From NCBI RefSeq assembly GCF_000332175.1, contig NZ_KB235910.1, forward strand, positions 248,001 through 312,000: a stretch of DNA of 64,000 nucleotides, in the 5' to 3' direction. The DNA is from Pseudanabaena sp. PCC 6802 (GTDB taxonomy: Bacteria > Cyanobacteriota > Cyanobacteriia > Pseudanabaenales > Pseudanabaenaceae). Below the pieces are notes generated by a model. It saw only the letters and a program-made list of their open reading frames with translations. It ran no database searches and was not told where the DNA came from. Both the position numbers and the translations under genes were made by a program. Shown piece by piece: positions 7,626 to 8,541 of the stretch; position 1 is the first letter of the stretch, and every line of letters begins with the position of its first letter.

Positions 7626-7628
7626 TTA

Positions 7629-7738
7629 TACCAATTTGAATAGTAAACATGACAGATCTAAGGGGGGAAGGGGTGGAACCCCTTCGTGGAGGCAACGCCC
7701 CCACACCCCATCTGTAACCCGAACAATTTAAATTGGTA
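7629..7738 (+). mobile_element. Family H short element (110 bp)
   Basis: Ends TACCAATTT and AAATTGGTA form a perfect 9-bp inverted repeat, flanked by TTA on both sides. The interior is a GGGGTGG...CGTGGAGGCAACGCCCCC hairpin region without coding capacity. Related copies are at 5826-5936 and 60830-60934. Confidence 0.8.
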
Positions 7739-7790
7739 TTAGATTGACTCGTAGACTTATCGGCTGAAGTTCACCATTGGAGGTAGCTCC

Positions 7791-8541
7791 ATGACAACAA
7801 CATTACCAATACTCACGGAAGAGCAAATTAGAGCCAGGCAATTTATTGAACTGAAGGGCATTAGTTGGCAGACTTACAAGGAACTAATGGCCCAGTTGGG
7901 TGACGATCGCGTGTGGAGAATTGCCTACGACCAGGGTGTGCTGGAGATTAGAATGCCGTTAACAGAACACGAAGAACCAAAAATTATAATTGCTGACCTC
8001 GTTACAGCTCTAGCTGAAGAACTAGAAATTGAAACAAGACAGCTTGGAGCCTTGAAGCTAGAGCGTGAAGACCTCACCCGTGCTGTCGAACCCGATACTT
8101 GTTTTTATATTCAAAGTGAGTTAGCAGTGAGGGGAGTTAGAAGTATTCACCTATTGCTCCGGCAATAATACAGCCTGCATTTTTTAGGTAGTGACCCTTG
8201 AAACAACCGTATCTCCTGTAATATCTCAGGCTGCCGGAGCAATACCTGAGAATCCACCACCAGATTTAGTAGTTGAGTCCGACTATAGGCATTCTTCGAT
8301 CGATAAATTCTCCCTATACGCTGCGCTTGGCGTGCCCGAGTTGTGGCGATATCGCAAAAAGAATCTGGAGGTATATCAACTCATTGATGGAAAATATGAG
8401 CAAGTAACATGTAGTGCTGCCTTACCTACGTTCCCAATTGCCGAGGTTACAACTTACATCGAACAAAGTTTTGAGATCGGGCAAAGGGCAGCAGTGCGCT
8501 TATTTAGGGAGCGTATTCGAGAAATTTTGCCTCAAAAATAA
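7791..8541 (+). pseudogene. Uma2-family endonuclease gene interrupted by an 89-bp element
   Basis: Uma2 (DUF820) proteins have a PD-(D/E)XK nuclease-like fold; their biological role is not established. The first frame (7791-8168, 125 residues) carries the N-terminal half through EPDTCFYIQ. The second frame (open from 8191) carries PPPDLVVESDYRHSS and the LGVPELWRY motif. They are offset by one base. Deleting 8154-8244 (an element plus one TA) joins them as ...RSIHL-PENPPPDLVVE... and gives one frame of 220 codons including the stop, the normal family size. As it stands, translation stops four codons into the insertion, leaving the presumed active site split. An intact Uma2 gene lies at 30240. 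Confidence 0.85.
8154..8242 (+). mobile_element. 89-bp inverted-repeat element inside the Uma2 gene
   Basis: Ends are TTGCTCCGGCA and TGCCGGAGCAA, a perfect 11-bp inverted repeat. TA directly flanks both sides (8152-8153 and 8243-8244). No coding frame. Insertion size with target duplication is 91 bp, which explains the one-base frame offset of the host gene. Confidence 0.85.

Follow-up and report, generated by a model that had tools for sequence, protein, structure and literature searches.

An 89 bp IS630-type miniature element interrupting a Uma2 gene at a duplicated TA in Pseudanabaena sp. PCC 6802

RUP, a non-coding element of about 100 bp in pneumococcus, has terminal inverted repeats similar to those of the resident IS630-Spn1, which has been proposed to move it in trans (PMC3049150), and the same source presents Nezha as a cyanobacterial MITE whose proposed mover is a resident ISNpu3-like insertion sequence (IS). 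Fifteen MITEs have been described inside disrupted genes of Anabaena sp. 90, with no IS partner having matching ends (type II) (PMC3542288). ISY100 of Synechocystis sp. PCC 6803 belongs to the Tc1/mariner/IS630 group, duplicates its TA target and needs only its transposase to move; cleavage takes place at the 3' ends and, for the 5' ends, two bases within the element, which is then joined to TA; repair duplicates this TA, and excision leaves a footprint (PMC2170065).

Here, a Uma2 gene in the window, i.e. the whole stretch of 64,000 nucleotides analysed from Pseudanabaena sp. PCC 6802 (C1:248001-312000; positions without a contig label are those of the window), is interrupted by a small element (Table 1). 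A preliminary description had reported 89 bp, perfect 11 bp inverted ends and TA on either side, all of which agree with the sequence. The element is too small to hold a transposase gene. As a single strand, the 93 bases comprising the element and both TAs fold far more stably than shuffled sequences (z = -4.5, 0 of 200 shuffles). A scan for promoters and terminators found none in the element.

Table 1. Features of the interrupted Uma2 locus (window positions).
Feature	Position	Strand	Remarks
5' part of Uma2 gene	7791..8153	+	121 codons including the target TA; current ORF ends at 8168, with its stop just inside the element
Left TA of duplicated target	8152..8153	none	TA flanks in family; single TA in within-genome empty sites
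Non-autonomous element (MITE), IS630 type, 89 bp	8154..8242	none	14 genome copies (13 full length); ends common to the resident 1131 bp IS630 element
Left terminal inverted repeat TTGCTCCGGCA	8154..8164	+	11 bp; match reaches 12 bp (TTGCTCCGGCAA) in most other copies
Possible transposase-binding region AATACAGCCTGCATTTTTTA	8167..8186	+	20-base stretch interior to the left end; resembles right ends of IS630 relatives
Right terminal inverted repeat TTGCTCCGGCA	8232..8242	-	Exact complement of the left end
Right TA of duplicated target	8243..8244	none	TA flanks in family; single TA in within-genome empty sites
3' part of Uma2 gene	8245..8541	+	Open frame of 98 codons plus stop, not in frame with the 5' part

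The upstream ORF (7791-8168, 125 aa) runs into the element and stops immediately. On its own it reaches 20 bits (positions 2-80) against the Uma2 profile (PF05685; length 172), below the cut-off of 27 bits, and the 3' frame reaches 37.8 bits (positions 93-156). Joining the flanks without 8154-8244 (91 bases, one TA kept) gives 219 aa and a stop in a single 220-codon frame, as had been proposed, and the joined protein matches positions 2-155 of 172 continuously with 65.5 bits, an intact orthologue scoring 64.5 bits. Intact orthologues found in related genomes by a search with the 3' half have open frames of 230-256 codons and are 55-62% identical. The restored 219-residue protein aligns with them continuously and without a gap at the junction LPENPPPD (..RSIHLPENPPPDLVVE.. 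against ..RTISLPENPPPDLAIE..), indicating that the orthologues are free of the insertion. Their codon at the insertion site is TTA, TTG or CTT, the DNA being too diverged to show TA in all of them. An EPD motif in the 5' half and an E..K stretch (VVESDYRHSSIDK) in the 3' half, which we take to be the catalytic residues of a PD-(D/E)XK nuclease, are separated by the insertion. A structure search with Uma2 gave a weak match as the sole solved relative (PDB code 9y1l), and the nearest paralogue in the genome is 41% identical over the 3' half. The joined protein (7791-8541) also matches the PADLOC candidate family PDC-S17 (2e-39), which makes the gene a possible member of a candidate anti-phage group.

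The element is not a chance arrangement, since the 5.62 Mb genome (six contigs) holds 14 copies, spread over three contigs; 13 are full length and L014 is truncated at one end. The full-length copies are 88-100% identical to the one in the Uma2 gene and have TA on both sides, except for CA on one side of L011. The inverted match is 11 bp here owing to a T>C change next to the right terminal repeat, found elsewhere only in the copy at C5:501001; this shared change and their 100% identity indicate that the two copies are closely related by transposition. At two other copies, a 395-codon frame runs into the element (L007) and an open frame of 155 codons begins within it (L010).

Searching the genome for the ends and for full-length relatives returned, besides the 14 copies, 11 (about a dozen) copies of a 1131 bp IS: the 13 left-end bases, where found outside the MITE, are the left ends of this IS. 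All 11 start exactly with TATTGCTCCGGCAAT, end with ATTGCCAAGGCAATA and are flanked by TA. With both TAs included, eight measure 1135 bp; of the other three, one exceeds this by 99 bp and one by a single base, and one falls a single base short of it. The left end is TTGCTCCGGCAAT and the right end TTGCCTTGGCAAT, and the TTGCTCCGGCAA of the left end and the TA flanks are the same as in the element. The transposase (345 aa, 99-100% identical among eight intact copies) belongs to the IS630 family (NF033545, 209 bits, cut-off 100; DDE_3, 113 bits). Left-end positions 5-7 read TCC in the youngest resident IS group and TTT or TTC in older copies, so that the MITE ends match the youngest group. The window itself contains no copy of the IS630 transposase, in keeping with the earlier statement that it holds no larger, transposase-bearing copy; the nearest matches on C1 lie at 97-98 kb and 581-584 kb, and there are many elsewhere in the genome. 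Two older IS630 copies (C5:109417-111810 and C1:580961-584303) are both interrupted at the same position of the transposase; residues 196-203 occur in the matches on either side of the interruption, which looks like the insertion of another element in each copy.

The nearest relatives of the IS clade (64-72% identical) are found in other families of the class, and the IS630 matches in genomes of the same family were all distant. A search of 291 related genomes and plasmids found no full relative of the MITE, and a search of viral contigs found none. From this distribution of sequences, the IS clade and the MITE both appear to be lineage-specific or to have been acquired by this lineage.

Duplication of the target can be followed within this one genome. 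Copies of one interspersed repeat hold MITE copy L003 and the ISs L023 and L028, in each case at TGATA[TA-element-TA]GCTATAGCC, demonstrating that one target can serve both MITE and IS; five of the seven unoccupied copies of this repeat read TGATATAGCTATAGCCA, with a single TA where the occupied ones have two. An older MITE copy (L013, C5:2426398-2426490) splits another Uma2 gene, and joining its flanks on one TA (..RAKIRDAKPVTLPNDSEPETD.., IRDAKPVTLPN) restores the Uma2 frame as a single frame of 191 codons. The single-TA repeats, the second restored Uma2 gene and the orthologue alignment uphold the earlier reading of a TA-duplicating insertion that knocked out a Uma2 gene, an event that was probably recent.

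The resemblance of one of its ends to IS630 right ends makes an internally deleted relative of an IS630 element, that is, a MITE, the most likely identity of the element. Past the 13-base terminus, one MITE end matches the right ends of the resident IS and of those in genomes G162, G168 and G043 at mostly 12-16 of 20 bases (p of about 0.01 or less for most pairs in single-test shuffles, uncorrected). For positions 8167-8186, 13-15 of 20 bases agree with the right ends of the ISs in G000, G162, G168 and G043 (shuffle p of about 0.001 or less per single test), and the other MITE end shows a weak likeness to a single left end (G168, 10 of 20, p of about 0.04). Direct deletion of the resident IS as the source of the MITE is weakened by these comparisons, its inner ends matching IS relatives as well or better.

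The same MITE might have been moved by a different IS630 element, now lost or more distant, the resident IS having only the outer 12 bases in common with it. The ends of the resident IS are unequal (TTGCTCC.. on the left, TTGCCTT.. on the right) and the MITE has two left-type outer ends; the sub-terminal sequence of several copies is closer to the G168 and G043 right ends (14-16 of 20) than to those of the resident IS (10-13 of 20). Both points suggest that the resident transposase may not be the mover, and the oldest MITE copies (L011 and L014) have different bases at end positions 5-7. However, the outer ends exactly match the TCC of the youngest resident IS group and the two elements share a target repeat, leading us to regard a different mover as unlikely.

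We hold it highly probable that the element is a MITE of the IS630 family (Tc1/mariner superfamily) that was moved in trans, most likely by the resident 1131 bp IS630, into the Uma2 gene at a TA. Transposase supplied in trans, most likely from this IS with its identical outer 12 bases, would bind the inverted ends; the element would be cut from another copy and joined to a TA target, here in a CTA codon of the Uma2 gene, and host repair of the two-base stagger would leave TA on either side. The net gain of 91 bases shifts the frame: translation of the 5' half ends within a few codons of the junction, and the 3' half lies out of frame. Given the frameshift, the early stop and the displaced 3' half, the gene is almost certainly dead, and its protein has presumably lost its function. 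The preliminary description stated that exact removal restores the gene; this is correct for the reconstructed ancestor but is not what one would expect of an excision product, since excision of ISY100, the best-studied cyanobacterial relative, leaves a footprint. By analogy, clean restoration of the frame by the transposase is unlikely, since excision leaves extra bases and the two overhangs here, both TT, would be unable to pair. Likewise, the remaining sequence, said to be a readable record of the mechanism, is one as regards the ends and the TA, and reading it also needs the full-length partner found at other sites of the genome.

The 5.6 Mb genome has 117 Uma2-domain matches (on C1, C2 and C5), which suggests that loss of one Uma2 gene is probably tolerated. 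Two of the 14 MITE copies lie inside Uma2 genes and a third lies 42 bases past a Uma2 domain match. In random placement, three of 14 within 60 bases has p of about 0.0006, and two or more inside domain matches p of about 0.007, for an association that was noticed after the fact and may reflect only dispensability. That the roughly 117 Uma2 genes act as a tolerated landing pad for the MITE is, in our judgement, improbable; were more than dispensability involved, it would represent a gene-family bias in MITE insertion or retention. Just upstream of the interrupted gene, at 7627-7740, lies a second, older repeat with imperfect inverted ends (ATACCAATTTGAA and AATTTAAATTGGTAT) and a GC-rich core, which is matched in full or in part 49 times in the genome.

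One could also read the element as an insertion ancestral to the gene, or as a programmed one of intein- or intron-like type, with the gene still working; an open frame that starts at a GTG inside the element and reads into the 3' half (8191-8541) would be in keeping with this. The aligned orthologues, which have no insert, argue strongly against it, as do the stop reached when the 5' part is read on into the element, the copies at many unrelated sites and an Rfam search in which the element matched no RNA family, group I and II introns included, leaving this reading a very slim chance. A REP or palindromic hairpin repeat of IS200/IS605 type, to which the short, hairpin-forming and multi-copy nature of the element might point, is less credible still, since it has its terminal inverted repeats in common with an IS630 element of DDE type and lies between duplicated copies of the target TA, IS200/IS605 transposition causing no target duplication.

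The case provides a well-documented MITE with a probable autonomous partner, empty sites within the genome and two knock-outs traceable to functional-looking ancestors. It would offer a clean test case for IS630 trans-mobilisation in cyanobacteria and for gene loss in an expanded family of Uma2 nucleases; the understanding of either is left unchanged by it. The MITE family is new and of a well-known kind, to which RUP/IS630-Spn1, Nezha and the pseudogene MITEs of Anabaena sp. 90 belong; ISY100 may be compared with it. RUP is of the same size class, has terminal inverted repeats like those of a resident IS630-family IS and is likewise proposed to move in trans, but it inhabits another host at high copy number, compared with 14 copies here, and is likened by description, not by sequence. 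Nezha is also a cyanobacterial MITE with a proposed resident IS mover, again likened by description and not by sequence. ISY100, a cyanobacterial IS630-type element, duplicates TA in the same way, but is autonomous and its excised donor closes with TATATA; this likeness too is one of description. The MITEs of Anabaena sp. 90 also disrupt genes, and are of type II, whereas the element described here has an IS partner with matching ends and is thus of type I.
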